NCBI RefSeq assembly: GCF_001887355.1
Contig: NZ_MPIN01000020.1
Coordinates: forward strand, 48,297 to 112,296
Reading direction: 5' to 3'
Source of the DNA: Cystobacter ferrugineus
Lineage (GTDB): Bacteria > Myxococcota > Myxococcia > Myxococcales > Myxococcaceae
Length of the DNA: 64,000 nt
Part shown: piece by piece, positions 3,901 through 18,811 of the stretch
Layout: every line of letters starts with the position of its first letter
Numbering within the stretch: position 1 is the first letter of the stretch
Program-made: the position numbers and the translations under genes
Notes under the pieces: generated by a model
Databases searched by the model: none
The model's input: the letters and a program-made list of their open reading frames with translations, nothing else
Told to the model about the DNA's origin: nothing

Positions 3901-6900
3901 CGCGAGCGACCGGAAACACGGGGACTGGTTGGCTTCTTCGCCAACACGCTGGTGGTGCGCTGTGACCTGTCGGGTGATCCCACCTTCCAGGAACTACTAC
4001 ATCGGGTGCGCGCACGCGCCGCCCGCGCGTTCGCGAACGCGGACCTGTCCTTCGACGAGGTGGTGGAGGCCGCTCAGGCGGCACGTGATGGCAACCGCAA
4101 CCCGCTCTTCCGGACGAGCTTCGTGCTGGAGAGCCCGCCGACGCGCAATACCGAGATCCCGGGCATGGTGTGGAGCCCGGTGGTGTGGCCACCCGACGGG
4201 GCCATCGAGGGGACGTCCAAGTTCGACCTGTCGCTGGCCATGGCCGAGACGCCGGAGGGCTTCATCGGCGCGCTGGAATACAGCACGGATCTGTTCGAGC
4301 CGGGCACTGTCGAGCGCATGGCGGGACACCTGCTCGTGCTGCTGCGGGGCATCGCCGAGAATCCCTCGCGGCGCCTGAGCGAGCTGCCGCTGCTGACAGA
4401 AGCAGAGCGCCACCGGCTGCTCGTGGAGTGGAACGATACCGCGGCGGACTTCCCGCGCGAGTCGTGTTTTCACTCGATCTTCGAGGCGCGGGCCGCGCGC
4501 ACGCCAGACGCGGTGGCCGCGCTCTTCCGGCAGCAGCAGCTCACCTACGGGGAGCTGAACCGCCGCGCCAACCGGCTGGCCTGGCAGTTGCGTGCCAGCG
4601 GGGTTGGACAGGACGTGGTGGTTGCCGTGTTGCTCGAGCGCGGCATCGACTTCCTCACCACCCTCCTGGCCATCTTCAAGGCCGGGGGCGCTTACCTCCC
4701 GCTGGATCCAGGCCACCCCGCGCAGCGTCATCAGCAGGTGTTGGAGCAGAGCGGCGTGCACCTGGCCGTGTGCTCCGCTGGGTTCGCCGCGGTGCTGGAG
4801 GCACGACTTCCGCGGGTGCTGCGGGTGGAAGCGCTGCTTGCGCACGAGGGCGCCGAGCACGACCTGCCGCCCGTGAGCACGCCGGACTCCCTCGCCTACG
4901 TCATCTACACCTCTGGTTCGAGCGGCATCCCCAAGGGGGCGATGATCCAGCACCGGGGGATGCTGAACCACCTGTATGCCAAGGTCCATGCCCTGGAGCT
5001 GACTGCGGCGGATGGCCTGGCCCAAACAGCCTCGCAATGCTTCGACATCTCCGTATGGCAGTACCTGGCGGCCCTGGTCGTCGGCGGGCGCGTCCACATC
5101 TACCCGGACGAGATCGCCCATGATCCGCGGCAGCTCTTCGAGCAGGTCCGGGCCGATGGGGTGTCCATCCTCGAGGTCGTTCCCTCGCTGTTGCGGATGT
5201 TGCTCGACGGGATGGAGGTGCGGAACGAGTCCTCCCTGGCACTTCCGGCGCTGCGCTGGCTGATGCTGACGGGCGAGGCGCTGCCGCCGGAGCTGAGCCG
5301 CGCATGGCTGAAGCGCCACCCGTCCATTCCGCTGATCAACGCGTACGGGCCCACGGAGTGCTCGGATGACGTCACGCACCATCCGATCCGGGTCCCGCCC
5401 GCCGCGGGCGAGGTGTACACGCCCATTGGCCGCCCCATCATCAACACACGGCTCTACGTGCTGGACCGCTACCAGCAGCCGGTACCGGCTGGCGTGGCGG
5501 GCGAACTCTACGTCGGAGGCGTGGGCGTGGGACGCGGCTACCTCAACGATCCGCAGCGGACGAACACCGCCTTCCTGCCCGACCCGTTCTCCGCCGAGGT
5601 GGGGGCGAGGTTGTATCGCACCGGGGACCTGTGCCGTCTCAACCCGGAGGGCGTGCTCGAGTTCCTGGGCCGAGTGGATGATCAGGTGAAGGTGAGGGGC
5701 TTCCGAATCGAGCTGGGCGAGGTGGAGTCCGTGCTGCTGGGGCACGGCGGAGTGAAGGAAGCGGTGGTGGTGGCGCGGCAGGAGAAGCGAGGCGACAAGC
5801 GGTTGGTGGGGTACGTGGTGCCAGGGAGAGAGGGGTGGGAAGGCGTAGAGGCGCTGAAGGGGTACCTGAAGCAGAAGTTGCCGGAGTACATGGTGCCCTC
5901 GGCGTTCATGGTGCTGGAAGGGCTGCCGCTGAACGCCAATGGGAAGGTGGACCGCAAGGCGCTGCCAGCCGTGGAGGTGGAGCGGCAGCAGGCCGCGTAC
6001 GTCGCGCCGCGCACGCCACGGGAACAACTGGTGGCGCAGCTTTGGACCGAGTTGCTGGGGGTGGAACGGGTAGGGGTGGAGGAGGACTTCTTCGCGCTGG
6101 GAGGGCATTCGCTGCTGGCCACGCAGGTGGTGGCGCGTGTGCGCTCGCGCTTGGGAGTGGAGTTGCCGCTGCGAGCGGTGTTCGAGGCCCCCACGGTGGC
6201 GGGGTTGGTGAAGCGAATCGAGCAGGAGCGTGGGGGGGGCGAGAAGGTGGAGGAGGTGGCGCTCAGGCGGGTAGAGCGGCAGGGGAGGCTGCCGCTGTCC
6301 TTCGCGCAGCAGCGCCTGTGGTTCCTCGACCAGTTGCAGCCAGGCAGCGCGCTCTACAACGTGCCCGGAGCGGTGAGGATGAAGGGGGCGCTCCACGTGG
6401 AAGCGCTGGAGGGCGGGCTGGAGGAACTGGTCGCCAGACACGAGGCGCTGCGGATGCGCTTTCGAGCGGAGGAGGGAGTGCCGTACGCCGTGCTGGCGCA
6501 GCCGCAGCCGGTGGGGCTGGAGCGGGTGTCGTTGGAGGCTGTTGCGCCACAGGAGCAGCAGGCGCAGGTGCACCAGTGGATGAAGCGGGAGGCGCAGAGG
6601 CCCTTTTCGCTGGAGCACGGCCCGCTGCTCAGAGGCGTGCTGCTGGTTCTGGGGCCGCAGGAGCACGTGCTGCTGCTGACGATGCACCACATCGTGTCGG
6701 ATGGGTGGTCAGTGGGCGTGTTGGTGAAGGAGTTGTCGCGGGCGTACAAGGCCCGAGTTGAGGGGCGCGAGGTAGAGCTGGAGCCGCTGCCTGTGCAGTA
6801 CGTGGACTACGCGGCGTGGCAGCAGGAGTGGATGAAGGGGGCCGCGCTGCAGAAGCAGCTGGGGTACTGGCGCAAACAGTTGGAGTTCGTCGCGCCCTCG

Positions 6901-9900
6901 TTGGAACTTCCCACGGACAGGCCGCGGCCCGCGGTGCCGAGCATTCAAGGTGGGCGCTGCCCGGTGAAGCTGGACAAGCCGCTGACGCAGGCGCTGGGGG
7001 CGCTCAGCCGTCAGGAGGGCGTCACCCTCTTCATGACGCTGCTGGCGGGCTTCCAGGTGCTGCTCTACCGCTACACCGGGCAGGGTGACATCGTGGTGGG
7101 CTCGCCGATAGCGGGGCGCACGAGAGAAGAAGTGGAGGGGTTGATCGGCTTCTTCGTGAACACGCTGGTGCTGCGCACGCGTGTGAGGGGGGAGGAGAGC
7201 TTCCGGCAGGTGCTGGGCCAGGTGCGAGAGGTCACGCTGGGGGCGTACGCACACCAGGAGGTGCCCTTCGAGAAGCTGGTGGAGCAACTGCAGCCGGAGC
7301 GGGACTTGAGCCGCACGCCGTTGTTCCAGGTGATGTTCGTGCTGCAGAACGCGCCACGGCAGCAGTTGCGCCTGGCGGAGCTGGAGCTGGAAGAGGTGGT
7401 GGTGGACAGCGGGACGTCGAAGTTCGACATGACGCTGCAGTTGGAGGAGACGCAGGAGGGGTTGGAAGGGGCGTTGGCGTACAACAGCGCGCTGTTCGAC
7501 AGGGGGACCGTGGAGCGGATGGTGGGGCACCTGAGGGTGCTGCTGGAGGGGGTGGTGGCGCAGGCGGACAAGCCGGTGCGGGAGCTGGGGCTGCTGACCA
7601 CGATGGAGCGGCAGCAGGTGCTGGTGGAGTGGAACCAGACCCAGGCCGACTACCCGGTGGAGTGCCTGCACGTGGTGGTGGAGCAACAGGCGCGGCGCAC
7701 ACCGCAAGCCGTGGCGGTGAGCTTCGAGCGGGATCGGCTGACGTACCAGCAATTGGAGGAGAGGGCCAACCGGCTGGCCCAGAGGCTGCGCAAGCTGGGA
7801 GTGGGTCCAGAGGTGCTGGTGGGGTTGTTCCTGGAGCGCTCGGTGGAGCTGGTCGTGGCGCTGCTGGGAGTGCTGAAGGCCGGTGGCGCGTACGTGCCGC
7901 TGGAGCCAACCTACCCCAAGGAGCGGTTGGGCTTCATGCTGGAGGATACGCAGGTGCCGGTGCTGTTGACGCAGCGGCACCTGATGCAAGGGCTGCCCGC
8001 GCACCAGGCCCAGGTCCTGTGTCTGGATGAGGACTGGCAGTCCATTGCCCGTGAGCCAGCCGAGCCGCCCTCCAGCGCGGTGACACCGGACAACCTCGCC
8101 TATGTCATCTACACCTCCGGCTCCACGGGCCAGCCCAAGGGCGTGATGATCACGCACCGCGCGGTGGGCAACTTCCTGCTTTGGTCCAACCGGGTGTTTC
8201 CGCTGGGCCACGGTGACCGGGTGTTGCAGAAGACACTCTCCGGCTTCGATGCCTCGGTCTGGGAGTTTCTCGCGCCCTTGATGGCTGGTGCGGAACTGGT
8301 CATGGCCCGGCCCGACGGACACCGGGACACCGGCTACCTCATCCAGATACTGGAAGAGCGCCGCATCACCCACCTCAAGCTGGTGCCCTCGCTGCTTCAG
8401 GCGCTACTGGAGGAGCCTGCCTTCGGGCGCCTCTCCTCGCTCAGGCACGTCTTCTGCGGTGCCGAGGCCCTGCCCGTCGAGCTGGTGCGGCGCTTCCAGG
8501 AGCGCTCGCCCGCGGCGCTCTGCAATATGTACGGTCCGACCGAGGCATCCATCGATGCTTCATACTTCCCCATCACGGGGGAGCCATCCGGCGCGATTGT
8601 TCCTATCGGCCGTGCGCTCGACAACGTCCGGCTCTACGTGCTGGATGCCGCGCGGCAGCCGGTCCCCGTGGGTGTACAGGGTGAGCTGTACATCGGCGGC
8701 GTGGGCCTGGCGCGCGGCTATCTCAACCGCCCTGAACTGACCGCCGAGCGGTTCGTCTCCGCGTCCCCGGGGCCGCAGGCTGAACGTCTCTACCGAACGG
8801 GCGACCGGGTGCGCTGGTTGCCGGGTGGGGACATCGAGTTCCTCGGCCGCCTGGACCATCAACTGAAGATCCGCGGCGTGCGTATCGAGCCCGGGGAGAT
8901 CGAAGCCGTACTGACCCAGCACCCCACGGTGCGTGAGGCCGTGGTGATGGCGCGAGAGGTGGGTTCCGGTGACAGGCGCCTGGTGGCCTACGTCACTCCC
9001 CGGGGCGATACGGCCCAGGCACCCGGCGAGCTGATGGCATACCTGCGCACCCGGTTGCCAGAGGTCATGGTCCCCTCGGCCATCATTCCATTGCCGGCCC
9101 TGCCATTGAATTCCAGTGGCAAGCTGGACCGGAACGCCCTCCCGGCTACCGAGGAAGTGTTCTCCTCGCGCGAGGGCCTGGTGGGCCCGCGCACCCCCTT
9201 GGAGCAGCAGTTGGTGGAGATCTGGCAGGACCTCCTCGGTATCCAGCCGATCGGCATGAAGGACGATTTCTTCATGCTGGGTGGACACTCGATGCTGGCC
9301 ATCCGACTGATGGCGCGGATCCGCAACCGGCTCGGCCGCGAGCTGCCTCTCATGAGCCTCTTTCGCAACTCCACCATCGAGCAGATGGCTGCCGTGCTGC
9401 AGCGGCCCTCGGAGCCCGTAGACAGCGCCACGCTGGTATCCATCCAGCCGGAGGGCAGCAGGATGCCCTTCTTCTGTGTCCATCCAGTGGGCGGGGGCGT
9501 GCTCTGCTATGCGGAGCTGGCCCACGCGCTGGGCCGTGAGCAGCCCTTCCACGGCCTGCAGAACTACTCGCCCGCTACAGGGAGCGCACTCCCCACGAGC
9601 ATGGAGGAGATGGCCGCTGCCTATATAGAGGCGATCCGGAGCATCCAGCCCCGGGGGCCATACCTCCTGGGCGGCTGGTCCATGGGCGGCGCGGTAGCCT
9701 TCGAAATGGCTCACCAGCTCGAGCGCCGGGGCGAACAGGTGGGACTGCTCGCCCTCATTGACAGCCATGCGCCCGAACGGGTCCGTGCCTCGAACTCCCA
9801 AAACGGCTTGCCGCCGGTGGCCCGGTTCGCCCTGGACTTCGGCGCGCTGCACGGCAAGAACTTGTCCGGCTGGGTGGACGGGCTCGTTCAGCGCGATCGC

Positions 9901-10266
9901 CAGGCGCAGTTGAGCGTGCTGCTCGCTACGTTCAAGCAGCACGGAAGCCTGCCTCCGGAGTTCAGTTTCGCGGAACTGGAGCAGCTGCTGGCCACCTTCG
10001 AGCACAACAGCGCGGTGCTCGAGCGTTACATCCCGCGCGGCGTGGCGGCTCCTGTCGCCCTGTTCCGCGCCAGCGAGGAAGAGGGGAGCGAGCACGAAGC
10101 CTCGGCCCTGGGGTGGGGGCCGCACGCCACGGGCGGCATCCAGCGGCACGTTATCCCTGGCAATCACTTCACCTTGCTGACACAGCCGAATGTCCGGCTT
10201 CTCGCCCAGGTGCTACGGTCCTGCCTGGTAGAGGCCACCGCGCGCACGCTCGTCCAGTCCGCCTGA
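943..10266 (+). CDS. Lipopeptide synthetase: FAAL-ACP-C-A-PCP-C-A-PCP-TE
   Basis: A 3107-residue NRPS. Domains in order: fatty acyl-AMP ligase (~1-590; YTSGSTGTPKG near 182-192), ACP (GLDSL, Ser651), C1 (HHIVTDG, H846-G852), A1 (YTSGSSGIPKG near 1322-1332, catalytic K1668), PCP1 (LGGHSLL, Ser1723), C2 (HHIVSDG, H1915), A2 (YTSGSTGQPKG near 2390-2400, K2727), PCP2 (LGGHSML, Ser2783) and type I thioesterase (GWSMGG, Ser2913; Asp2940; His3075). It should load a fatty acid, add two amino acids and release a lipodipeptide. There is no epimerisation, oxidation or ketosynthase domain. By alignment to GrsA, the A1 pocket reads D-I-W-E-M-T-A-D-D-K; acidic residues E1411, D1475 and D1476 suggest a diamino acid, fitting the Dap genes downstream. 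A2 reads D-A-W-K-F-G-M-I-D-K, near Gln/Glu-type codes. Residues ~1585-2360 have visibly different codon use. A GAGG 12 nt upstream supports this ATG. Confidence 0.93.
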   Translation: MSQGNPQEVDQCSTLVDVLRLRATVQGSQLAYRFLSTGDADGEIDEWTYAQLDFRARAIGSTLQAEKAWGERVLLLYPPGLDFIAAFMGCLYAGAIAVPTYPPDPARLSRTLPRLRAIAQDSGTRFVLTTTPILEMAEFLLPEAPELGALRWLASDTPSEELAGAWRPPDITGDTLAFLQYTSGSTGTPKGVMVSHTNVLHNERQVRASFEHDAGSDFVGWLPLFHDMGLIGNVLQPLYLGSRCTLMSPVSFLQRPMRWMEAISRYRARTSGGPNFAYDLCARRATDQDRASLDLSSWTVAFNGAEPIREDTLERFVQAFAPAGFRREALYPCYGLAEATLLVSGALKSEPPVYKMVEGTSLERYAVEAASQEQNARCLVSSGRGTIEQRLLIVDPETRLACPPGRVGEIWVSGANVARGYWNRPEETERTFGARLADSGEGPFLRTGDLGFLDDTELYVAGRIKDLIILRGRNIYPQDVELVVEQVHPRLRQGCCAAFSLEMDGEERLAVAVEMEPRGAPVEPPELVAAIRRAVAEQFGVHAHVVLLLKARTIPKTSSGKIQRHACRLGFLQGSLELVERSVQETPVLDDSASKTGGEALSPREALRVASAEERPRILERFVLAEVARALRVDPSRLDGEASLASVGLDSLQFIDMHGRLEGALGLRLPSAFLWQHPTLASLAEGLRVLWEAGDSAATPGSTPLVAGPIEGEQPLSVGQHRLWFLNQLVPGTALYNLQFGLRLTGQLDTAALERGLQALVRRHASLRTVFLEVEGEPRQRILPELMLPMPKVDRLGLSREAREAEVRHLALALGGEPFDLARGPLMRARLVSFDRDDHVLLIAQHHIVTDGWSISVLAGELASFYRSFSTGGALALAEPALSYVDYARWESSRAGSLDGQREFWKQELAGLPRLELPTDRAHSGSISHRGATLPVSVPRPLVEKLKALGRREGCTPFVLLLAAYETLLHRYSGQDDFGVGTIVANRERPETRGLVGFFANTLVVRCDLSGDPTFQELLHRVRARAARAFANADLSFDEVVEAAQAARDGNRNPLFRTSFVLESPPTRNTEIPGMVWSPVVWPPDGAIEGTSKFDLSLAMAETPEGFIGALEYSTDLFEPGTVERMAGHLLVLLRGIAENPSRRLSELPLLTEAERHRLLVEWNDTAADFPRESCFHSIFEARAARTPDAVAALFRQQQLTYGELNRRANRLAWQLRASGVGQDVVVAVLLERGIDFLTTLLAIFKAGGAYLPLDPGHPAQRHQQVLEQSGVHLAVCSAGFAAVLEARLPRVLRVEALLAHEGAEHDLPPVSTPDSLAYVIYTSGSSGIPKGAMIQHRGMLNHLYAKVHALELTAADGLAQTASQCFDISVWQYLAALVVGGRVHIYPDEIAHDPRQLFEQVRADGVSILEVVPSLLRMLLDGMEVRNESSLALPALRWLMLTGEALPPELSRAWLKRHPSIPLINAYGPTECSDDVTHHPIRVPPAAGEVYTPIGRPIINTRLYVLDRYQQPVPAGVAGELYVGGVGVGRGYLNDPQRTNTAFLPDPFSAEVGARLYRTGDLCRLNPEGVLEFLGRVDDQVKVRGFRIELGEVESVLLGHGGVKEAVVVARQEKRGDKRLVGYVVPGREGWEGVEALKGYLKQKLPEYMVPSAFMVLEGLPLNANGKVDRKALPAVEVERQQAAYVAPRTPREQLVAQLWTELLGVERVGVEEDFFALGGHSLLATQVVARVRSRLGVELPLRAVFEAPTVAGLVKRIEQERGGGEKVEEVALRRVERQGRLPLSFAQQRLWFLDQLQPGSALYNVPGAVRMKGALHVEALEGGLEELVARHEALRMRFRAEEGVPYAVLAQPQPVGLERVSLEAVAPQEQQAQVHQWMKREAQRPFSLEHGPLLRGVLLVLGPQEHVLLLTMHHIVSDGWSVGVLVKELSRAYKARVEGREVELEPLPVQYVDYAAWQQEWMKGAALQKQLGYWRKQLEFVAPSLELPTDRPRPAVPSIQGGRCPVKLDKPLTQALGALSRQEGVTLFMTLLAGFQVLLYRYTGQGDIVVGSPIAGRTREEVEGLIGFFVNTLVLRTRVRGEESFRQVLGQVREVTLGAYAHQEVPFEKLVEQLQPERDLSRTPLFQVMFVLQNAPRQQLRLAELELEEVVVDSGTSKFDMTLQLEETQEGLEGALAYNSALFDRGTVERMVGHLRVLLEGVVAQADKPVRELGLLTTMERQQVLVEWNQTQADYPVECLHVVVEQQARRTPQAVAVSFERDRLTYQQLEERANRLAQRLRKLGVGPEVLVGLFLERSVELVVALLGVLKAGGAYVPLEPTYPKERLGFMLEDTQVPVLLTQRHLMQGLPAHQAQVLCLDEDWQSIAREPAEPPSSAVTPDNLAYVIYTSGSTGQPKGVMITHRAVGNFLLWSNRVFPLGHGDRVLQKTLSGFDASVWEFLAPLMAGAELVMARPDGHRDTGYLIQILEERRITHLKLVPSLLQALLEEPAFGRLSSLRHVFCGAEALPVELVRRFQERSPAALCNMYGPTEASIDASYFPITGEPSGAIVPIGRALDNVRLYVLDAARQPVPVGVQGELYIGGVGLARGYLNRPELTAERFVSASPGPQAERLYRTGDRVRWLPGGDIEFLGRLDHQLKIRGVRIEPGEIEAVLTQHPTVREAVVMAREVGSGDRRLVAYVTPRGDTAQAPGELMAYLRTRLPEVMVPSAIIPLPALPLNSSGKLDRNALPATEEVFSSREGLVGPRTPLEQQLVEIWQDLLGIQPIGMKDDFFMLGGHSMLAIRLMARIRNRLGRELPLMSLFRNSTIEQMAAVLQRPSEPVDSATLVSIQPEGSRMPFFCVHPVGGGVLCYAELAHALGREQPFHGLQNYSPATGSALPTSMEEMAAAYIEAIRSIQPRGPYLLGGWSMGGAVAFEMAHQLERRGEQVGLLALIDSHAPERVRASNSQNGLPPVARFALDFGALHGKNLSGWVDGLVQRDRQAQLSVLLATFKQHGSLPPEFSFAELEQLLATFEHNSAVLERYIPRGVAAPVALFRASEEEGSEHEASALGWGPHATGGIQRHVIPGNHFTLLTQPNVRLLAQVLRSCLVEATARTLVQSA

Positions 10267-10297: not shown

Positions 10298-10933
10298 ATG
10301 ATCAAACTCCATTACTACCCCGGCAGCGCCAACCTCACTCCTCACATGGTCCTCCACGAGCTCGGTCTGCCCTTCGAGCTCGTTCTCGTGGATCGTGACA
10401 AGAATGCGCATCGCAGCGAGGAGTACCTCAAGCTCAACCCTCACGGGCGCATTCCCACGCTCGTGGACGGAGACCTGGTCATCTACGAGACCGCGGCCAT
10501 CACCCTGCACCTGGTGGACCGCCATCCCGAGGCGGGGCTCGCCCCGGCCGTGGGCAGCCCAGCGCGCGCGCGCTTCTACCAGTGGATGGTCTACCTCGCG
10601 AACACCCTCCAGGCCGCGATGCACACCTATTTCTACTCCGAGCAGTACGCGAAGACCCCCGCCGTCATCGAGGAGGTTCGGGCCCATTCTGAGACCCGTA
10701 TGCTCGAGATGTTCCGCATCCTCGATGCGCAGCTCGGCGACAAGCCCTACGTGCTCGGTGACACGCTCAGCGCCGCGGACCATTACCTGTTCATGCTCAC
10801 GCGGTGGGGCCGCAATATGCAGACGCCCCCCAGAACGCTGCCTCGACTCGGCCGCCACGCCGAGCGGATGTTGGCGCGCCCGGCCGTGCTCCGAGCCCTT
10901 CACGGAGAAGGTCTCTCAACGCCTTACTTTTGA
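10298..10933 (+). CDS. Glutathione S-transferase family protein
   Basis: 211 residues with the GST layout. The N-terminal thioredoxin-like half opens with KLHYYPGSANLTPHM, where Tyr/Ser residues near the start could activate glutathione. It is followed by the cis-Pro motif GRIPTLV and the YETAAI (E-S/T-like) motif that binds the glutathione gamma-Glu. The all-alpha C-terminal half carries the N-capping-box-like LSAADHYLF. It starts 31 bp after the NRPS stop and is probably co-transcribed. In biosynthetic clusters such proteins catalyse glutathione addition, isomerisation or detoxification of a reactive intermediate; which one applies here cannot be read from the sequence. Family call is confident, role open. 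Confidence 0.85.
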   Translation: MIKLHYYPGSANLTPHMVLHELGLPFELVLVDRDKNAHRSEEYLKLNPHGRIPTLVDGDLVIYETAAITLHLVDRHPEAGLAPAVGSPARARFYQWMVYLANTLQAAMHTYFYSEQYAKTPAVIEEVRAHSETRMLEMFRILDAQLGDKPYVLGDTLSAADHYLFMLTRWGRNMQTPPRTLPRLGRHAERMLARPAVLRALHGEGLSTPYF

Positions 10934-11035: not shown

Positions 11036-11623
11036 ATGCCAAACGTCGCGGTCCTCACGAATGATCTGCAGTACGAGTTTCTGGAGAAGACTCCCGAGCG
11101 CAAGCTGGCCACGGAGCGTGTCATCCCGCCGTTCTGCTCGTTCCTGGATGGGATTCGTGCTCTGGGGCAGGTGGTCGTGCACCTGCAGCTCGTGAACAAC
11201 CCCGATGATCCTCAGGTGCGGCGTCGCTACCGTGACTACATCCCGGTGGTCCGGGGCACGCCTGGCTCGCGGCTCGTCGAGACCTTCGTCCATCCGTCGG
11301 ACATCGTCATGGAGAAGCCTCGGGACAGCGGCTTCTACGACACGGCGCTGGACGAGAAGCTCCAGGAACTCGGCGTGAAGACGGTGATCGTCACGGGGCT
11401 GCAGACGCAGATCTGCGTGCAGACGACCGCCGCGGACGCCTTCTTCCGAGGCTATAACGTTCACGTCCCCGCCGACTGCGTCTTCTCCGCCCGCGAGGAT
11501 GACAGGAAGCGGGCGTTGGATTGGATGGCGGCGTACTGTGCCACCATCACCTCGGCCCCTGAGATCCTCGCGCAGTTGAAGGCGGACGGAGACCTGCCGC
11601 GCCGCGCTCCCAGCCAGGCCTGA
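11036..11623 (+). CDS. Isochorismatase-family cysteine hydrolase
   Basis: 195 residues with the cysteine-hydrolase (isochorismatase-like) triad in the usual spacing: Asp10 (LTNDLQ), Lys94 (MEKPRDSGF) and Cys127 (TQICVQTT). The family includes nicotinamidase, N-carbamoylsarcosine amidase and ureidoacrylate hydrolase, all of which attack amide or carbamoyl carbons. It is not a typical isochorismatase domain of a catecholate siderophore: no aryl-carrier domain is attached and no dihydroxybenzoate genes are nearby. Given the HypE, HypF and carbamoyltransferase genes around it, a substrate bearing a carbamoyl, ureido or amide group is a reasonable inference. It is preceded by a 102-bp gap and followed by a 112-bp gap that holds a hairpin, so it may sit at the end of a transcriptional sub-unit. 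Confidence 0.85.
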   Translation: MPNVAVLTNDLQYEFLEKTPERKLATERVIPPFCSFLDGIRALGQVVVHLQLVNNPDDPQVRRRYRDYIPVVRGTPGSRLVETFVHPSDIVMEKPRDSGFYDTALDEKLQELGVKTVIVTGLQTQICVQTTAADAFFRGYNVHVPADCVFSAREDDRKRALDWMAAYCATITSAPEILAQLKADGDLPRRAPSQA

Positions 11624-11634
11624 GAGCCACTACA

Positions 11635-11663
11635 GGCCGAGGCCTTCCGCGAGGGACTCGGCC
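11635..11663 (+). terminator. Terminator-like hairpin between hydrolase and hypE
   Basis: GGCCGAG (11635-11641) pairs with CTCGGCC (11657-11663), with an extra inner TCC/GGA pairing. A C-run, not a T-run, follows, so this is a weak intrinsic terminator at best. It may instead attenuate read-through from the NRPS genes into hypE. Confidence 0.4.
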
Positions 11664-11735
11664 CCCCCAACACTGTTCTTGTTGTCTCATCAACCCTACG
11701 TACTCCGCTCTCCCGGGAGAGCGGCTGAGGCATGA

Positions 11736-12764
11736 ATGAGCGAGCGCTCCGGAAGTGAGCAAGACTTCGTTGTCCTGGATCATGGCACTGGCGCGAAGCT
11801 GAGCCGCGAGCTGGTCGAGCGGATCGCCGAGGCGCTCGGTGATGTCTATATCGGACAGATGGAGGACAGCGCGCTGCTGGATGTTGGCGCGGGGAGAATC
11901 GCGGTGACCACGGACTCGTTCGTGGTGACGCCGCTATTCTTCGGCAGCGGGGACATCGGCAAGGTCTCCGTGTGCGGCACGGTGAACGACCTGGCGGTCA
12001 GCGGCGCCCGCCCGCTCTATCTGACGCTGGGCCTCATCCTCGAGGCAGGCTTCCCCATGAAGTCGCTGCTGCGGATCCTCGCTTCAATCCGCGCGGCGGC
12101 CCTGGAGGCCAACGTCAAGATCGTCGCCGGCGACACGAAAGTGGTGCGCCAGGGCGAGGCGGACCAGATCTTCATCAACACCACGGGCGTGGGGGTGCTG
12201 GAGCGCTCTCCGCTCAGGGCGCAGGCGGTGCGGCCGGGGAACAAGATCATCATCAGCGGCAACATCGGCAATCACTCCATCCACCTGCTGTCCGTACGCG
12301 AAGGGCTTGGGTTCGAGCGCCGCGTGGAGAGTGACTGCGCGCCGCTCAACGGCATGATTGACATGCTGCTCAAGAGCCTCCCGGAGGGCACCATCTCTTG
12401 CATGCGTGACGTCACCCGCGGCGGTCTGTGCGCGGTGCTGCACGAGTTCGCCCGAGCCAGTGGCCACACGCTCCAGTTCCACAAGGAGCGCGTGCCCGTC
12501 ACGCCGGAGGCCGTCATGGCCGCCGACATGCTGGGCATCGAGCTCATCCACCTGGCCAACGAGGGCTGCCTGTGTCTCTTCGTTGACGAGGCGCATGCGG
12601 AGCAGGTGCTCGGCCTCTTGCGCGAGCACCCGTACGGGCGCAACGCGGCCATCATCGGCGAGGTCACCGCCACGCCGGAGCCGCGGGTCTACATGGTCGC
12701 GCCAGACGGCACCCGCACCATGCTCGAGGAATTGTATGGAGCGGAACTCCCTCGTCTTTGCTGA
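11736..12764 (+). CDS. hypE: HypE homologue (thiocarboxamide dehydratase, AIR-synthase fold)
   Basis: 342 residues, full length for HypE. The known enzyme takes a carbamoyl group on its C-terminal cysteine and dehydrates it with ATP to a thiocyanate, the source of the CN ligands of [NiFe]-hydrogenase. Seen here: the ATP-binding loops (TTDSFVVTPLFFG; CGTVNDLAVSGA), GDTKV with Lys135, the DVTRGG motif, NEG with Glu276, and the C-terminal PRLC ending in Cys342, so the carbamoyl-accepting residue is kept. One deviation is GNHS (179-181 region), where canonical HypE has GDHG. It sits 16 bp before hypF and inside an NRPS locus with no hypA, B, C, D or hydrogenase gene in view, so a role in secondary metabolism is inferred. 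The ATG at 11736 overlaps no other gene. Confidence 0.9.
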   Translation: MSERSGSEQDFVVLDHGTGAKLSRELVERIAEALGDVYIGQMEDSALLDVGAGRIAVTTDSFVVTPLFFGSGDIGKVSVCGTVNDLAVSGARPLYLTLGLILEAGFPMKSLLRILASIRAAALEANVKIVAGDTKVVRQGEADQIFINTTGVGVLERSPLRAQAVRPGNKIIISGNIGNHSIHLLSVREGLGFERRVESDCAPLNGMIDMLLKSLPEGTISCMRDVTRGGLCAVLHEFARASGHTLQFHKERVPVTPEAVMAADMLGIELIHLANEGCLCLFVDEAHAEQVLGLLREHPYGRNAAIIGEVTATPEPRVYMVAPDGTRTMLEELYGAELPRLC

Positions 12765-12780
12765 CGCCTCCTTACGCACC

Positions 12781-15120
12781 ATGAGAGAGACCCGTCGCTA
12801 CCGCATCAATGGCATCGTACAGGGGGTGGGCTTCCGCCCCTGCGTCCACCGGTTGGCCCGCCAGTTTGGGGCTGGCGGTTGGGTGTTGAACGACTCGGAT
12901 GGTGTCCTCCTCGAGGTGCAGGGGCCCGGCGCGGCCCTGGATGCGTTCATGGACGAGTTGGTGACCCACCCGCCACCCATGGCGCGGATCCTCCGGGTGC
13001 TGCGGGTGCCAGCCAGCGAGCCCGAAGTCCACTACGAGGGCTTCGAGATCAAGCACAGCGTCGATCTCCAGCGCACGGAGACGATCGTCCCGCCGGACTC
13101 CAACGTCTGCGAGGACTGCCTTCGGGAGATGAAGAACCCGGAGGATCGGCGGCACCGCTATCCCTTCATCAACTGCACCAACTGCGGCCCGCGCTACTCC
13201 ATCATCTACGACATGCCGTACGACCGGCCGCAGAGCACCATGCGGGCGTTCCGGATGTGTGGCCCATGCGAACGGGAGTACCACGACATCGAAGATCGCC
13301 GGTACCACGCCCAGCCCAATGCATGCCCTGACTGCGGGCCGCGGCTGGAGGCAAGAGACCGCGATGGGCAGCGGATCGACACGCCAGACGTGGTGCGCTT
13401 CGCCATCGCTCGGCTGCGCGAGGGCGCCATCTTCGCGGTGAAGAGTCTGGGTGGGTTCCATCTGGTGGTGGACGCCGCCAACGAAGCGGCCGTGCGGGAA
13501 CTTCGCCGGCGCAAGCGGCGTGATGCCAAACCCTTCGCGATCATGGTGGCGGACCGCGAGTCAGCCCGGCGAGTCGCGGAGGTCAGCCACTACGACGAGC
13601 AGATCCTCGAGAGCCCTCAGCGCCCCATTGTCCTGCTGCGCAAGCGGCCCGGGGTGCTCTCGGACGCGATCGCGCCGCGCAATCCCAACCTTGGCATCAT
13701 GCTGCCATCCACTCCGCTGCACTACCTGCTGCTGGAGGATCCGGGCCTCCAGACGCTCGTCATGACCAGCGGGAACATGTCCGGGCACCCCATCTGCTAC
13801 GACAACGAGAGCGCGCTGACGCAGCTACGGGGGGTGGTGGATTACTTCGTCCTGCATGACCGTGATATCCGGACCCGGGTGGACGACTCGCTGGTCCGCC
13901 CCACGCAGGCCGAGGGCCTGGGCCAGCCGATGCTGTGCTTCGTGCGCCGCTCGCGCGGATATGCCCCGTACCCCATCCACCTGCCGGAGCCGGTGGGATC
14001 CATCGTGGCACTGGGCGCGGAGTTGAAGACGACGGTCGCGCTCAGCAAGAAGAGCGAGGTCTTCGTTGGCCAGCACATCGGCGACCTGAAGAACGACTCC
14101 ACCTTCGAGGCACACACCGACTGCGCCAAGCACATGCAGCAATTGCTGTCCATCCGCCCCGACGTGGTCGCCTGTGATATGCACCCGGCCTTCCGCTCCA
14201 GCCGCGCGGCCGTCGAGCGCAAGGAACTGAGAGTGGTGCGCGTGCAGCACCACCATGCCCACATGGCCTCGTGCATGGCGGAGAACGGCCTGACGGGTAA
14301 GGTGATCGGGGCCATCTTCGATGGATCCGGCTACGGGCTGGATGGGACCATCTGGGGCGGCGAGTTCCTCTACGGGGACTATCGCGAGTTCACGCGCGTC
14401 GGGCACCTGCGCCCCCTCTACCTGCTGGGAGGAGACAAGGCCGTGCGGGAGCCGATCCGCGTGGCCATCTCGCTGCTGACCGAGACCTTCGGAGAAGAGG
14501 CTCACCGGCTGGAGCTACCGGCGCTCGCGGATCTGGAGGCGTTCAACCGGGAGGTCTTCTTCAAGATGGCGGCGAAGAAGATCAACGCCACGCCGACCAC
14601 GAGCATGGGGCGGCTGTTCGATGGGGTCTCCTCGCTGCTGCGGATCTGCCATCAATGCGAGTATGAGGCCCAGGCCGCCATCGAGCTGGAGGCCCTGCTG
14701 GACCGTGACTTCCAGATGCTGCCGCCCCTCGCCTATTCGCTGGAGGCGCAGGAGGATCGGTTGGTGGTGGACTACCGGCCGCTGATCCGGGAGCTGGTGG
14801 AAGAGCTGCGAGGAGGAGCCACCCCAGACGTCAAGCGGTTGAGCCGCCGCTTCCACTCCACGGTGGTGGACATCATCGGGCAGATGTGTGGCCGCCTGGC
14901 GGAGCGCCATGGCACCCGCACGGTGGTGCTCAGTGGAGGCGTCTTCATGAACGAGTACGTGCTGGTGAATGCGCTCCGGCGCCTGAAAGAACTGGGGTTG
15001 GAGCCGCACTGCCATCGCCAGCTCCCAACCAACGATGGCGGGATTTCCCTGGGGCAGATCATGGTGGCGCATGCCCAGTCCGCGTCGGCGGAGCTGCCCA
15101 GCTCCCAGGAGACACCATGA
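12781..15120 (+). CDS. hypF: HypF homologue (carbamoyltransferase feeding HypE)
   Basis: 779 residues, slightly longer than E. coli HypF, with every domain present. Acylphosphatase domain: GIVQGVGFRPCVHRLA near residues 11-26. Two zinc fingers: Cys110/113-Cys132/135 and Cys160/163-Cys182/185. YrdC-like domain: VKSLGGFHLVVDAANE and RDAKPFAIMV. C-terminal Kae1-like domain: QHHHAH at 490-494, DGSGYGLDGTIWGGE and LSGGVFMN. HypF hydrolyses carbamoyl phosphate, makes carbamoyl-adenylate and loads the HypE cysteine. The frame is open further upstream inside hypE, but the ATG at 12781 gives the conserved N-terminus. Its TGA overlaps the exporter ATG (ATGA), so the two are translationally coupled, which ties it to the NRPS operon and not to a hydrogenase operon. 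Confidence 0.92.
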   Translation: MRETRRYRINGIVQGVGFRPCVHRLARQFGAGGWVLNDSDGVLLEVQGPGAALDAFMDELVTHPPPMARILRVLRVPASEPEVHYEGFEIKHSVDLQRTETIVPPDSNVCEDCLREMKNPEDRRHRYPFINCTNCGPRYSIIYDMPYDRPQSTMRAFRMCGPCEREYHDIEDRRYHAQPNACPDCGPRLEARDRDGQRIDTPDVVRFAIARLREGAIFAVKSLGGFHLVVDAANEAAVRELRRRKRRDAKPFAIMVADRESARRVAEVSHYDEQILESPQRPIVLLRKRPGVLSDAIAPRNPNLGIMLPSTPLHYLLLEDPGLQTLVMTSGNMSGHPICYDNESALTQLRGVVDYFVLHDRDIRTRVDDSLVRPTQAEGLGQPMLCFVRRSRGYAPYPIHLPEPVGSIVALGAELKTTVALSKKSEVFVGQHIGDLKNDSTFEAHTDCAKHMQQLLSIRPDVVACDMHPAFRSSRAAVERKELRVVRVQHHHAHMASCMAENGLTGKVIGAIFDGSGYGLDGTIWGGEFLYGDYREFTRVGHLRPLYLLGGDKAVREPIRVAISLLTETFGEEAHRLELPALADLEAFNREVFFKMAAKKINATPTTSMGRLFDGVSSLLRICHQCEYEAQAAIELEALLDRDFQMLPPLAYSLEAQEDRLVVDYRPLIRELVEELRGGATPDVKRLSRRFHSTVVDIIGQMCGRLAERHGTRTVVLSGGVFMNEYVLVNALRRLKELGLEPHCHRQLPTNDGGISLGQIMVAHAQSASAELPSSQETP

Positions 15121-16787
15121 AGAAACTGCTGGCTTTCATCTCCGGCTATTCCCGCCGATCGCTCATCCAGGCGCTCGTGGCCGGAATCGTCTGTGGCGCG
15201 TGCAATACGTCTCTGCTGGCGCTGATCAACCGCACGGTGAAGGAGGGCACCGGCGCGAACACCCTGTGGATGTACATTGGTGTGTGGCTGCTGCTTCCGC
15301 TGTCCCGGTTCAGCTCGGAGATGCTGCTGACCACGCTGGGGCAGGGCGCGCTCTATGAGCTGCGTGCCCGGTTGAGCCGGAAGATCCTCGGCGCGCCGAT
15401 GCGGCAACTGGAGGAGGTGGGCGCGCCCAGGCTGCTGACAATGCTCACCGAGGACCTTCCGGTCATTACCGCGGCCCTGTTGCAGATTCCCATGCTCTGC
15501 GTCAACGGGGTGATCGTCGTGGGCGGCTTGCTCTACATGGGCTGGATGTCGCCAACGCTGTTCGTCATGGTGCTGGGGCTGATGGTGCTGGGCGTCCTCG
15601 GCTACCAATTGCCGGTGCTGAGGGCGATGCGCCACTTCCGCAAGTCCCGCGAGGCGAGCGACGCGCTGATGACCGGCTTCCGAGCGCTGACGCAGGGGAC
15701 GAAGGAACTCAAGCTGAGCCGGCGGCGGCGTGAGGCCTTTTTCTCCCGATCGCTGGATGCCTCGGCCCGTGACTACAAGGAGAACCACATCCGCGCCATG
15801 TTCGTGCACGTCGGTGCGGCGAGCTGGGGACAGGCGATGCTCTTCGCCATCATCGGCATGGTGCTCTTCCTGCTGCCCAGGTGGACGGCAGTGGATGCGC
15901 AGATGCACATCGGCTACGCGCTCGTGTTGCTGTACCTGATGACGCCGATGCAGATGGTGATGAACACCATGCCGGCGCTGAACCGGGCCGGCGTAGCTCT
16001 CGAGAAGGTGGAGGCAATGGGCGTATCGCTGGCGGAGGAACTGCCGGCGCAAGGCACCGAATCGCCTGATGCCATCGGGCCTGGGTGGAGCCAGCTGCAG
16101 TTGGCGGGAGTGACCCATGTGTACCGGCGTGAGGGCGAGGATAACAACTTCACCATGGGGCCCATCGATCTGACGCTCGAGCGGGGGCAGATCATCTTCC
16201 TGGCGGGAGGCAACGGCAGTGGGAAGACGACCCTGGCGAAGCTGCTCGTGGGCCTCTATGCGCCCGAGCGTGGGGAAATCCTCATCGACGGCAAGCGCGT
16301 GCTGGCCACGGAGCGGGAGGCGTACCGCCACCTGTTCACGGCGATCTTCTCCGACTTCTTCCTCTTCGAAAGCCTGCTGGGGCTGGACTCACCGAACCTG
16401 GACGAGGAGGCGCGCAACTACCTGCAGCTGCTGCAACTGCAGCACAAGGTGCAGGTGGCGAACGGCGTCTTGTCCACCACGGACCTGTCCCAAGGGCAGC
16501 GCAAGCGCCTGGCGCTCCTGGCCGCCTATCTGGAAGACCGGCCCATCTTCCTCTTCGACGAGTGGGCGGCCGACCAGGACCCGGTGTTCAAGGACATCTT
16601 CTATCGTCAGCTCCTGCCGGAGTTGAAGGCAAAGGGAAAGATGGTGATCGTCATCAGCCACGATGATCAGTACTACGGAATCGCGGATCGCATCATCAAG
16701 CTGAACTCCGGACAGGTGGCGTACGACCGCCCGGGGGCCCAGGTTTCCTCTTCCCTGACGGACGTCCAGTCCTCCAACGTGGGGTAA
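15117..16787 (+). CDS. Cyclic-peptide/siderophore ABC exporter, PvdE/SyrD type
   Basis: 556 residues: an N-terminal six-helix permease (~10-300) fused to a C-terminal ATPase with Walker A GGNGSGKTT (Lys370), signature LSQGQRKRLALL and Walker B FLFDEWAADQDP. The signature LSQGQ and the degenerate DEWAADQDP Walker B are hallmarks of the PvdE/SyrD/cyclic-peptide exporter family, which moves NRPS products or their precursors across the inner membrane. Start: ATG at 15117 overlaps the hypF stop by 4 nt. It is the most likely exporter of the lipopeptide made by this cluster. PvdE-type exporters often pass an acylated precursor to the periplasm for maturation, so final processing outside the cytoplasm is possible. 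Confidence 0.9.
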   Translation: MKKLLAFISGYSRRSLIQALVAGIVCGACNTSLLALINRTVKEGTGANTLWMYIGVWLLLPLSRFSSEMLLTTLGQGALYELRARLSRKILGAPMRQLEEVGAPRLLTMLTEDLPVITAALLQIPMLCVNGVIVVGGLLYMGWMSPTLFVMVLGLMVLGVLGYQLPVLRAMRHFRKSREASDALMTGFRALTQGTKELKLSRRRREAFFSRSLDASARDYKENHIRAMFVHVGAASWGQAMLFAIIGMVLFLLPRWTAVDAQMHIGYALVLLYLMTPMQMVMNTMPALNRAGVALEKVEAMGVSLAEELPAQGTESPDAIGPGWSQLQLAGVTHVYRREGEDNNFTMGPIDLTLERGQIIFLAGGNGSGKTTLAKLLVGLYAPERGEILIDGKRVLATEREAYRHLFTAIFSDFFLFESLLGLDSPNLDEEARNYLQLLQLQHKVQVANGVLSTTDLSQGQRKRLALLAAYLEDRPIFLFDEWAADQDPVFKDIFYRQLLPELKAKGKMVIVISHDDQYYGIADRIIKLNSGQVAYDRPGAQVSSSLTDVQSSNVG

Positions 16788-16789
16788 AT

Positions 16790-17761
16790 GTGTCTGGGTC
16801 CGCGCCATCGCAGTTGGAGAGGATTCGCGCACTGGGGGCCAGCCTGCGGCCGACGCCCATGGTGCCGCTCGAGTGCGAGGGCATCCGGCTCTTCGCCAAG
16901 CTGGAGTTCTGCAACCACTTCGGTAGCGTCAAGGACCGGTCCGCGTACTGGATCCTCAAGTCCGCTATCGAGGCCGGAGACATCGAGAACGGAAGCACCA
17001 TCATCGAGTCGTCCTCTGGCAACTTTGCCAACGCGCTGGCGTGCTACTGCCGTCTGCTGGATCTGCGGTTCATTCCCGTCATCGACCCCAACATCACCCG
17101 AGGCAACGAGTCCCACCTCCGGGAGATGTGCCAGCGAGTGGAGAAGGTCGAGAAGCGCGACGACATGGGAGGTTTCCTCAAGACGCGTTTGCAGCGAGTC
17201 AAGGAGCTGATGGAGCAGGAGCCGGGGGCCTACTGGACGAACCAGTATGGTAACGAGTGGGCGGTCGAAGCACATTACCGGCTGACAGGCGAGGAGCTGT
17301 GCCAGAGCTTCTCCCAGTTGGACTACATCTTCATCGGCGTGAGCACGGCGGGCACCATCGCCGGCATCTCGCGGCGGCTCAAGGAGCGCTTCCCCTCCGT
17401 ACAGGTGATCGCCGTGGACGTGGAGGGCTCGGTCATTTTCGGTGGCATGCCCCGGCGGCGTTACATCCCCGGTATTGGCTCGAGCATCAGTCCCGGGTTG
17501 CTGCGGCAGGCGCGCATCGACGACGTGGTCATGGTGTCAGAGCAGGAGACGGTACGTGGCTGCAACGAACTGCTCGTGCGCCATGGCGTATTTGCTGGGG
17601 GCTCCTCCGGCTCGGCCTATGCCGCGGTGAAGGCGTACCTGCCGAAGATGCACAGCCTGTCCGCGCCGCCCACCGTCGCCTTCCTCTGTGCGGACAGCGG
17701 GAAGTCCTACCTGGAAACCGTCTTCAATCCTGACTGGTGCAACAGCCGCTTCGGGATGTAG
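16790..17761 (+). CDS. sbnA: SbnA-like N-(2-amino-2-carboxyethyl)-L-glutamate synthase
   Basis: 323 residues, PLP-dependent cysteine-synthase fold. PLP lysine Lys48 lies in FGSVKDRSA. The substrate loop ESSSGNFANALA has the extra serine typical of SbnA and not of housekeeping CysK/CysM. The glycine-rich phosphate loop GVSTAGTIAG and the C-terminal GGSSGSAYAA are present. SbnA joins O-phosphoserine and glutamate to give ACEGA, which SbnB oxidises to L-2,3-diaminopropionate, alpha-ketoglutarate and ammonium release products. Start GTG lies 2 bp after the exporter stop; an ATG at 16788 is in another frame. The adjacent sbnB makes the assignment firm and predicts Dap in the final product. Confidence 0.88.
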   Translation: MSGSAPSQLERIRALGASLRPTPMVPLECEGIRLFAKLEFCNHFGSVKDRSAYWILKSAIEAGDIENGSTIIESSSGNFANALACYCRLLDLRFIPVIDPNITRGNESHLREMCQRVEKVEKRDDMGGFLKTRLQRVKELMEQEPGAYWTNQYGNEWAVEAHYRLTGEELCQSFSQLDYIFIGVSTAGTIAGISRRLKERFPSVQVIAVDVEGSVIFGGMPRRRYIPGIGSSISPGLLRQARIDDVVMVSEQETVRGCNELLVRHGVFAGGSSGSAYAAVKAYLPKMHSLSAPPTVAFLCADSGKSYLETVFNPDWCNSRFGM

Positions 17762-17800
17762 GCCACGAGCCCTCGCCCGGATTTCCTGGAATCATCGCCC

Positions 17801-18811
17801 ATGGACTTTACCTTCTCAGTGGTCCCCGGAAAGACCATCCACAGTTTGGTGCATGCCAACATCCCCGAGTGCATCCGGCAGGTGGAGGCGGCCTATCTCG
17901 CCCATGACGACAAGCAGACGGTCAATCCGGACAGTTACTTCCTGAGGTTCCCCGAGCAGCCGCAGAACCGGATCATCGCGCTGCCCGCCTGTCTGCGTGC
18001 CGGAACGGATGTCGCGGGCATCAAGTGGATTGCCAGTTGGCCGGGGAACATCCAGCGAGGCATTCAGCGGGCCTCCGCGGTGCTGGTGCTGAACGACCTT
18101 GAAACGGGCTACCCGTTCGCCTGCCTGGAGAGCTCCATCATCTCGGCGGCCCGCACCGCGGGTTCCGCGGTGCTCGCCGCCTCGTGGCTCAATGGCCGGA
18201 GCAGTCGGGTGAAGTCACTGGCCATCATCGGCAATGGCTTCATCGCGCGCTACATCTACGAGTTCATGATGGAGCTGGGCTGGGAGATCGAGGAGCTGTG
18301 CCTGCACGACGTGGCGCCGACAGAGTCCGAGCGCTTCTCGAGCCAGGTGGTCCGCAAGGAGCGCCACTCCCGCATCACCGTGGAGGCGGATCTGGCGAGC
18401 GCGCTGCGGTCCAGCGAGCTGATCGTGCTGACCACGGTGGCACCCAAGCCCTACATCAATGACCTGGCGCTGCTGGCTCACCACCCGATCATCCTCAACA
18501 TCTCCCTGCGGGACATCGCACCGGAGATCATCCTGCAGTCGCACAACATCGTGGATGACGTGGAGCACGTGATGAAGGCGGACACCTCGCCGCATCTGGC
18601 GGAGAAACTCTCCGGAGGGCGGGCGTTCGTCAACGGAACGTTGGCCGCGCTGATCCGCGGCAGGTGCTCTGTGGATCGAACGCGGCCCACCATCTTCTCG
18701 CCCTTCGGGTTGGGCGTGCTCGATCTTGCTCTGGGCAAGTGGATCTATGACGAGGCCGTGAAGGCGGGAACGGCCATCGCCATCCAGGATTTCTTCAGGG
18801 CAGAGCGCTGA
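17801..18811 (+). CDS. sbnB: SbnB-like 2,3-diaminopropionate synthase (ornithine cyclodeaminase family)
   Basis: 336 residues. N-terminal substrate domain and Rossmann NAD site IIGNGFIARYI (near 142-152), as in the ornithine cyclodeaminase/mu-crystallin family. SbnB-specific signatures are visible: GIKWIASWPGN, ETGYPFACLESS and IISAARTAGSAVLA. The enzyme oxidatively cleaves the SbnA product ACEGA to release L-Dap. It lies 39 bp downstream of sbnA and is the last gene of the + strand cluster; the following 100 bp contain a small inverted repeat and no further cluster gene, so this is the probable right border. Confidence is high because both members of the pair are present. Confidence 0.88.
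   Translation: MDFTFSVVPGKTIHSLVHANIPECIRQVEAAYLAHDDKQTVNPDSYFLRFPEQPQNRIIALPACLRAGTDVAGIKWIASWPGNIQRGIQRASAVLVLNDLETGYPFACLESSIISAARTAGSAVLAASWLNGRSSRVKSLAIIGNGFIARYIYEFMMELGWEIEELCLHDVAPTESERFSSQVVRKERHSRITVEADLASALRSSELIVLTTVAPKPYINDLALLAHHPIILNISLRDIAPEIILQSHNIVDDVEHVMKADTSPHLAEKLSGGRAFVNGTLAALIRGRCSVDRTRPTIFSPFGLGVLDLALGKWIYDEAVKAGTAIAIQDFFRAER

Follow-up and report, generated by a model that had tools for sequence, protein, structure and literature searches.

The 64,000-nucleotide stretch of Cystobacter ferrugineus DNA analysed here (assembly GCF_001887355.1, contig NZ_MPIN01000020.1, positions 48,297 to 112,296; hereafter the window) contains a non-ribosomal peptide synthetase (NRPS) cluster that also encodes HypE and HypF, and directly before them an isochorismatase-like cysteine hydrolase (CH). 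In our favoured interpretation, the three genes at 11036-15120 are a cyano-donor module that works independently of hydrogenase and in which CH would relay the cyano carbon of HypE to a small molecule. The initial annotation had described HypE and HypF as a pair within a lipopeptide cluster. The pair is real, but the module is a trio with CH, is portable and also occurs without an NRPS; both CH and a NodU/CmcH-type carbamoyltransferase at the left edge of the window had been overlooked.

HypE and HypF without a hydrogenase

HypE scored 426.8 bits against TIGR02124 (cut-off 251.6) and HypF 754 bits against TIGR00143 (cut-off 466.1). The Pfam domains of HypF comprise an acylphosphatase domain, two zf-HYPF stretches, YrdC and Kae1-like subdomains. 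Lys135, Glu276 and the terminal Cys342 of HypE were invariant in 16/16 HypEs from trio loci and in 60/60 others; the lysine and the glutamate are presumably those of the dehydration step. The acylphosphatase loop, the zinc-finger cysteines and the YrdC and Kae1 motifs were kept in all 16 trio HypFs apart from small swaps, which were found mostly in the proteins of Streptomyces clavuligerus and Rhizobium. The proposal that both proteins retain their catalytic features was borne out for all residues checked.

As outlined in PMC6594144 and PMC6022934, HypF hydrolyses carbamoyl phosphate and passes the carbamoyl group via carbamoyl-AMP to the C-terminal cysteine of HypE, where it is dehydrated with ATP to a thiocyanate; the cyanide ends on iron, and HypC and HypD are named for this transfer (PMC6594144). 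The window pair belongs to the same families, over the same cut-offs, with the same domains and catalytic residues as the pair of [NiFe]-hydrogenase maturation, and should therefore likewise take carbamoyl phosphate to Cys-S-CN. We consider it very probable that the HypE thiocyanate is formed.

What distinguishes the window from [NiFe]-hydrogenase maturation is the rest of the machinery. No match to HypA (PF01155), HypC, HypD or the NiFe large subunit (PF00374) was obtained in the whole assembly (12.05 Mb in 42 contigs, rated 99.99% complete and 3.09% contaminated), HypB, the small subunit and other hydrogenase classes lying outside these searches. Control genomes, E. coli among them, gave matches in the same searches. 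The earlier statement that such genes are missing from the window can thus be extended to the whole assembly for the four families searched. One HypE was over the cut-off, with two further matches below it, and one HypF, with three partial matches below it, so that a second hyp set was not found, nor were hydrogenase genes just outside the window that these sole hyp copies might serve. The HypE-HypF module is almost certainly independent of a hydrogenase.

Cyanide could also be made for a metal centre other than that of a [NiFe]-hydrogenase, for example as a cyano-iron ligand of a protein or a metallophore, and iron is indeed the fate described for the HypE cyano group (PMC6594144). This appears very unlikely to us: HypC and HypD are absent from the assembly, and no shared gene for a metalloprotein was noticed among the annotated trio loci, although no systematic search for one was made.

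The trio of CH, HypE and HypF in three phyla

A HypE pattern scan of GTDB contigs, sensitive to close relatives only, yielded four loci, three from Sorangium cellulosum (75% identity) and one from Nocardiopsis ansamitocini (63%). In each of them CH lies just upstream and HypF downstream of HypE, with NRPS genes beside. A plasmid collection added trio HypEs from Salmonella (69%), Citrobacter (68%), three Paraburkholderia (64%) and two Streptomyces (63-64%), as well as divergent ones from S. clavuligerus (55.9%) and Rhizobium leguminosarum (56.5%). A further actinomycete trio genome (G359, 63%) came from a 396-genome sample centred on Nocardiopsis. In E. coli, a DNA search with the Citrobacter cassette detected it in 14 of 5,426 genomes, in all cases on the chromosome. 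Of 394 genomes around G359 and 282 around Sorangium, only the centre genome was found each time, at a limit of E 1e-95 that could miss the most divergent members. The cassette is therefore rare or patchy, not absent, and the trio clade is recorded in Myxococcota, Actinomycetota and Pseudomonadota. Chance can be set aside, given the recurrence of these genes in other phyla.

Sixteen loci, including the window and one from E. coli (L086), were compared. Near-copies were counted singly (three Sorangium, three Paraburkholderia, two Streptomyces), leaving about seven separate lineages. A second E. coli locus (L087) was read but stands outside the 16, and Citrobacter CP056241 (H3) lies outside the fetched loci. 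Streptomyces NBC_01591 was left out; its trio-type HypE is broken and surrounded by transposon genes, and the stretch has no annotated CH. The HypE cut-off was exceeded in 69 genomes of the window's phylum; the loci of 30 were fetched, G000 is the window itself, and the others stayed outside the context comparison.

CH was present in 16/16 trio loci. In 15 of them it lies on the HypE strand and ends at most 138 bases before HypE or overlaps it; in S. clavuligerus it is divergent from HypE and separated from it by one gene. In Rhizobium, hypE and hypF flank a transporter gene. The association also holds when approached from CH: among the matches listed for the 72,556 plasmid records (the best 40 of 141 HypE records and the best 30 of 573 hydrolase records, in an order that leaves room only for partial matches beyond), a full-length CH match (at least 47%) occurred in 10 records, and a full-length HypE match (at least 55.9%) in exactly these 10. 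One HypE record with a partial match of 60-80% identity was not among the matches listed. The next CH match among those listed reached 37%, and no hyp gene is annotated near it.

In a tree of 76 HypE sequences, built by a quick method without bootstrap from the 16 trio HypEs and 60 others (from the window's phylum, Sorangium and actinobacteria), all trio HypEs fell on one side of a branch with a Shimodaira-Hasegawa-like approximate likelihood ratio (SH-aLRT) support of 100. The midpoint root divides this branch into lengths of 0.63 and 0.32. The C-terminus reads LPRLC in 16/16 trio HypEs versus PRIC in 60/60 others, and by the rule chosen, the two groups are told apart at nine sites, four of which fall within the final dozen residues. 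The 60 others were termed hydrogenase-type according to the origin of the search, before HypD was looked for, and two of their loci (L035 and L036) had been fetched by HypD itself. Using two HypD queries at E 1e-3, HypD was detected around 56 of the 60 (32/32 of the first set and 24/28 of the actinobacterial one), and with one query at E 1e-20 around 28 of the 60. HypD adjoins none of the 16 trio HypEs, one Paraburkholderia trio locus having a HypD match about 7.5 kb away. Conversely, CH was found in none of the 60 other loci, in stretches of 2.6-4.0 kb. The window HypE thus differs from those of [NiFe]-hydrogenase maturation by its own clade, its PRLC instead of PRIC terminus and its tie to CH and biosynthetic operons.

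The HypF tree (16 trio HypFs and six from hydrogenase-type loci) likewise placed the trio HypFs together (91/98), with one exception. The HypF encoded by plasmid pBN2 of Paraburkholderia aromaticivorans (L098, 8965-11295) is nested among the trio HypFs of its own genus (100/100) but by its context serves a hydrogenase. HypF alone is therefore no marker of the trio; the case also suggests that a trio-type HypF still performs the HypF reaction.

As an observation apart from the trio, hypE and hypF occur together with an SIS-domain gene on plasmids of Thermus thermophilus (L101, 1-4786) and Mycobacterium intracellulare (L103, 2477-7271). No hydrogenase subunit is annotated in the 7 kb read at these loci, and the M. 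intracellulare plasmid carries two HypC-family genes.

The hydrolase partner and the proposed acceptor of the cyano carbon

Asp10, Lys94 and Cys127 of CH were invariant in 14/14 aligned sequences, and from the family we take them to be the catalytic triad. The structure predicted from five sequences (mean predicted local distance difference test score, pLDDT, 86.9) has an isochorismatase-like fold. Comparison of this model with known folds gave matches with Z scores of about 19 to 22 (up to 22.0, many of them tied) to cysteine hydrolases, maleamate amidase, triuret and biuret hydrolases, RutB, N-carbamoylsarcosine amidase, isochorismatases such as PhzD and VibB, and nicotinamidases. The first match in Foldseek was an N-carbamoylsarcosine amidase or amidase-related protein from Thermoplasma, which is also the closest sequence in the PDB. 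N-carbamoylsarcosine amidase, RutB and the biuret and triuret hydrolases resemble CH in fold and Asp-Lys-Cys triad and act on ureido carbons; they differ from it in sharing only about 21-32% identity, and CH alone is tied to HypE-HypF. Scores of 53.9 bits against the RutB model (cut-off 377.95) and 57.6 against the biuret hydrolase model BiuH (cut-off 370) are far below both cut-offs. The Foldseek and PDB sequence matches lean towards a ureido-type carbon in the substrate of CH.

In the mechanism that we propose, HypF would convert carbamoyl phosphate to carbamoyl-AMP and load the carbamoyl group onto the HypE cysteine, and HypE with ATP would dehydrate it to Cys-S-CN. The basis of this half is that both families are intact and over their cut-offs, while the half concerning CH and the amine is read from gene context. 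Since HypC and HypD are absent, CH would take their place as acceptor, Cys127 attacking the thiocyanate or a cyanamide derived from it. CH would then hand the cyano carbon to an amine, which in the window's cluster would most readily be 2,3-diaminopropionate (Dap) from SbnA and SbnB. If Dap were N-cyanated and its second amine then closed the ring, a 2-iminoimidazolidine (cyclic guanidine) residue would result, or the reaction may stop at the cyanamide; either residue would be part of a lipopeptide for which the neighbouring ABC protein would be the exporter. It is likely that the cyano carbon ends up in a small molecule. For CH as its direct relay the arguments are evenly balanced, and a Dap nitrogen is a possible acceptor, proposed with somewhat less assurance still.

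A simpler role would be that of a carbamoyl donor only, HypE passing its thiocarboxamide to an amine to give a ureido group (3-ureidoalanine from Dap), with CH trimming or transferring it. That CH relatives cleave ureido bonds and that a second carbamoyltransferase, of the NodU type, lies in the same cluster would agree with this. Lys135 and Glu276, invariant in all 16 trio HypEs, would however be superfluous in a pure carbamoyl carrier, as would HypE itself, given that N-transcarbamylases are described in PMC6022934 as transferring the carbamoyl group directly. We therefore judge this role unlikely, and return to the cyano donor.

The genes around the window's trio fit a diamine acceptor. On the + strand they read, in order, the end of the carbamoyltransferase, NRPS, a glutathione S-transferase (GST)-like gene, CH, HypE, HypF, ABC exporter, SbnA and SbnB (Table 1). 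SbnA and SbnB are both over their curated cut-offs and together supply Dap. In two Sorangium genomes the carbamoyltransferase, SbnA, SbnB, an NRPS with a fatty-acyl-AMP ligase domain (FAAL-NRPS) and one extra module, CH, HypE, HypF and the exporter stand in a row, and in the third Sorangium locus the contig starts inside the NRPS. A search for HypE and HypF beside NRPS and FAAL genes in other myxobacteria, as recommended earlier, thus led to two Sorangium clusters with Dap genes. The ATGA at which hypF and the exporter join (exporter ATG at 15117, HypF TGA at 15118-15120), already pointed out in the initial annotation, was confirmed, and it is identical in all four myxobacterial loci. The same is true of the 29-base overlap of hypE and hypF, which assumes a HypF start at the ATG at 12736; an alternative in-frame ATG lies at 12781.

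The pocket of the first A domain reads DIWEMTADD in the window and in one Sorangium and DIWEVTAVA in the two others, as read against an anchor sequence. DIWELTADD is a code for diaminobutyrate, although a search found it in no paper, and the assignment of module 1 to diaminobutyrate or Dap is our assumption. It is a fair guess that the first module takes a diamino acid. The second pocket of the window, DAWKFGMID, was not readable.

Some other trio loci also suggest amine acceptors. On three Paraburkholderia plasmids, genes for an EctB-type diaminobutyrate transaminase (about 2 kb upstream; the EctB of one plasmid was scanned) and a GNAT protein precede the trio, and a guanidine analogue of ectoine is a conceivable product. 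At L072 (10060-12833), where EctB and GNAT lie upstream of the trio, no EctC is annotated; two of the three strains came from Mimosa. The S. clavuligerus locus contains agmatinase-like and ATP-grasp genes. In four actinomycete NRPS loci, a fluorothreonine-transaldolase-like enzyme and a gamma-glutamyl-hydrolase-like protein follow directly after HypF. This pair, the transaldolase-like gene and then a Peptidase C26 gene, occupies 17426-19482 of L073, 13947-15994 of L079 and 8049-10126 of L081, and perhaps makes a hydroxy diamino acid. An amine acceptor would fit several of the trio contexts, not all.

No NRPS gene was found in the stretch read around the trio in E. coli, Citrobacter, Salmonella, Paraburkholderia, Rhizobium and S. 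clavuligerus. Both E. coli loci that were read (L086, at 12001-17904, and L087) consist of a divergent LysR gene, CH, hypE, hypF, a gene for a HAD phosphatase and one for an MFS exporter; tRNA-Asn and integrase remnants lie nearby. The suggestion that HypE and HypF supply a cyano or carbamoyl group to a lipopeptide is upheld in its hydrogenase independence and in the link to Dap genes and a FAAL-NRPS, which recurs in two Sorangium genomes, but the module is not confined to this lipopeptide.

Several observations speak against a cyano transfer to Dap or another diamine by way of CH. SbnA and SbnB occur, among the fetched loci, only in the window and in two Sorangium loci, and the first A-domain pocket could equally be compatible with diaminobutyrate. 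The enterobacterial and Rhizobium stretches showed no diamine gene, the PLSDB tables being incomplete, and the sugar-phosphatase-like HAD protein and the MFS exporter of the enterobacterial operons point to another acceptor. In the fold comparison, the ureido hydrolases score level with isochorismatases and nicotinamidases; the role of CH may be no more than hydrolysis of an amide or ureido bond, and in E. coli L087 CH is annotated as two frames. Product and acceptor are both deduced from gene context. There are also links to hydrogenases. Of the three Paraburkholderia trios, two have a hydrogenase operon no more than about 10 kb away, one of these operons being seen with its own hypC, D, F, B and A, and the third lies near hypC/hypD remnants only. 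The trio-type HypF of P. aromaticivorans is encoded in a hydrogenase locus alongside HypC, HypD and HypE, and two Sorangium trio genomes also carry a hydrogenase-type HypD next to a HypE of the other type. The third Sorangium gave only a weak HypD match below the cut-off, and Nocardiopsis gave none.

From the hydrogenase links in Paraburkholderia one could conclude that the window genes are left-over or stray maturation genes without a role in the cluster. Their own clade, intact residues and constant CH partner, the conservation of both overlaps in all four myxobacterial loci and the recurrence across phyla make this extremely improbable. The spare enterobacterial operons, with little besides the trio, a phosphatase and an exporter, raise a different alternative: the trio may be a short pathway to cyanide or a nitrile that acts on a common metabolite, in which CH sets the cyano group free and the end product is free cyanide, thiocyanate or a nitrile bound to carbon or oxygen. 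The myxobacterial and four actinomycete trios, however, lie inside NRPS clusters with diamino-acid or transaldolase genes that would be needless for free cyanide, and we rate such a pathway as improbable, about on a par with the pure carbamoyl donor.

A transfer of the cyano carbon to an amine thus remains our preferred reading for the window. In its widest form, put forward tentatively, a portable three-gene cassette of CH, HypE and HypF might make a protein thiocyanate from carbamoyl phosphate and cyanate small-molecule amines, an arginine-independent route to natural products with cyanamides and cyclic guanidines, carried on chromosomes and plasmids in at least three phyla, some E. coli included.

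The carbamoyltransferase frame is cut by the left edge of the window, and its open frame starts 1159 bases further left. The N and C domains (Carbam_trans; PF02543 and PF16861) were matched on separate parts of the frame, each scanned on its own. Homologues (55.6% over 286 residues) precede sbnA-sbnB in two Sorangium strains. In Sorangium So0157-2, a second carbamoyltransferase-like frame (L084, 18311-19999), 39% identical to that of the window, stands beside the first. A GST with 31-33% identity lies near two of the three Sorangium trios. The Na/H exchanger is the likely right border of the cluster; neither this gene, on the other strand, nor the left-hand glycoside hydrolase looks related to it.

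Table 1. Genes of the NRPS cluster and its right-hand neighbour, in window coordinates
Feature	Position	Strand	Basis
NodU/CmcH-type carbamoyltransferase, C-terminal part	3..884	+	PF16861 inside window, PF02543 just left
NRPS, read as FAAL-PCP-C-A-PCP-C-A-PCP-TE	943..10266	+	Pfam domains, FAAL models, PDB relatives
Glutathione S-transferase-like protein	10298..10933	+	PF02798, PF00043
Isochorismatase-like cysteine hydrolase (CH)	11036..11623	+	PF00857, 122.2 bits
HypE, carbamoyl dehydratase with C-terminal Cys342	11736..12764	+	TIGR02124, tree, catalytic residues
HypF, carbamoyl phosphate-dependent S-carbamoyltransferase	12736..15120	+	TIGR00143, motifs, tree
Cyclic-peptide-type ABC exporter	15117..16787	+	TIGR01194, 491.8 bits (cut-off 286.2)
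SbnA-type enzyme, 2,3-diaminopropionate synthesis	16790..17761	+	TIGR03945, 398.4 bits (cut-off 349.95)
SbnB-type enzyme, 2,3-diaminopropionate synthesis	17801..18811	+	TIGR03944, 418.7 bits (cut-off 326.9)
Na/H exchanger with TrkA_C domain	19819-21903	opposite	

Relation to known systems and significance

Arginine amidinotransferases form guanidine products via a cysteine-bound one-carbon intermediate whose carbon comes from arginine. Capreomycidine and enduracididine are products of the same kind as the cyclic guanidine considered here; the proposed route would draw its carbon from carbamoyl phosphate, not from arginine. The O-carbamoyltransferases NodU, CmcH and TobZ, according to PMC6594144 and PMC6022934, use carbamoyl phosphate via carbamoyl-AMP. 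They share this route with HypF, and one member is encoded in the cluster, but they carbamoylate a hydroxyl and form no thiocyanate.

The closest precedent is the decRiPPter study, which reports orphan hypE and hypF with an ATP-grasp gene in a Streptomyces candidate family of ribosomally synthesized and post-translationally modified peptides and proposes a novel function for them (PMC7794033). As in the window, a putative biosynthetic cluster there holds hypE and hypF but no further hyp genes, whereas the passages of that account on this family make no mention of a CH partner, an NRPS link, diamino acids or other phyla. The S. clavuligerus trio, also with an ATP-grasp gene, might at a guess be a cluster of this type. 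Beyond this orphan pair, a literature search at the level of titles and abstract openings, covering few subscription journals and thus a weak negative, gave no description of the trio or of a HypE thiocyanate acting on an organic molecule. A name for the product, sought through the literature on guadinomine and cyclic guanidines and through actinomycete clusters, was not found there. The CH partner and the separate HypE clade are new, whereas the enzymes are known and their first steps probably so.

For annotation, the label 'hydrogenase maturation protein HypE/HypF' is by itself no evidence of a hydrogenase. The module predicts a nitrile, cyanamide or cyclic guanidine in the lipopeptide whose carbon comes from bicarbonate through carbamoyl phosphate, and the cassette is present in tractable species, namely some E. 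coli and S. clavuligerus. If the reading is true, the trio would provide organic molecules with electrophilic cyano carbon by a new enzymatic route that works without HypC, HypD or a hydrogenase. Its presence in biosynthetic clusters and other operons, in part in bacteria in which no such hydrogenase was found, suggests that bacteria reuse enzyme-bound cyanide for the building of small molecules.

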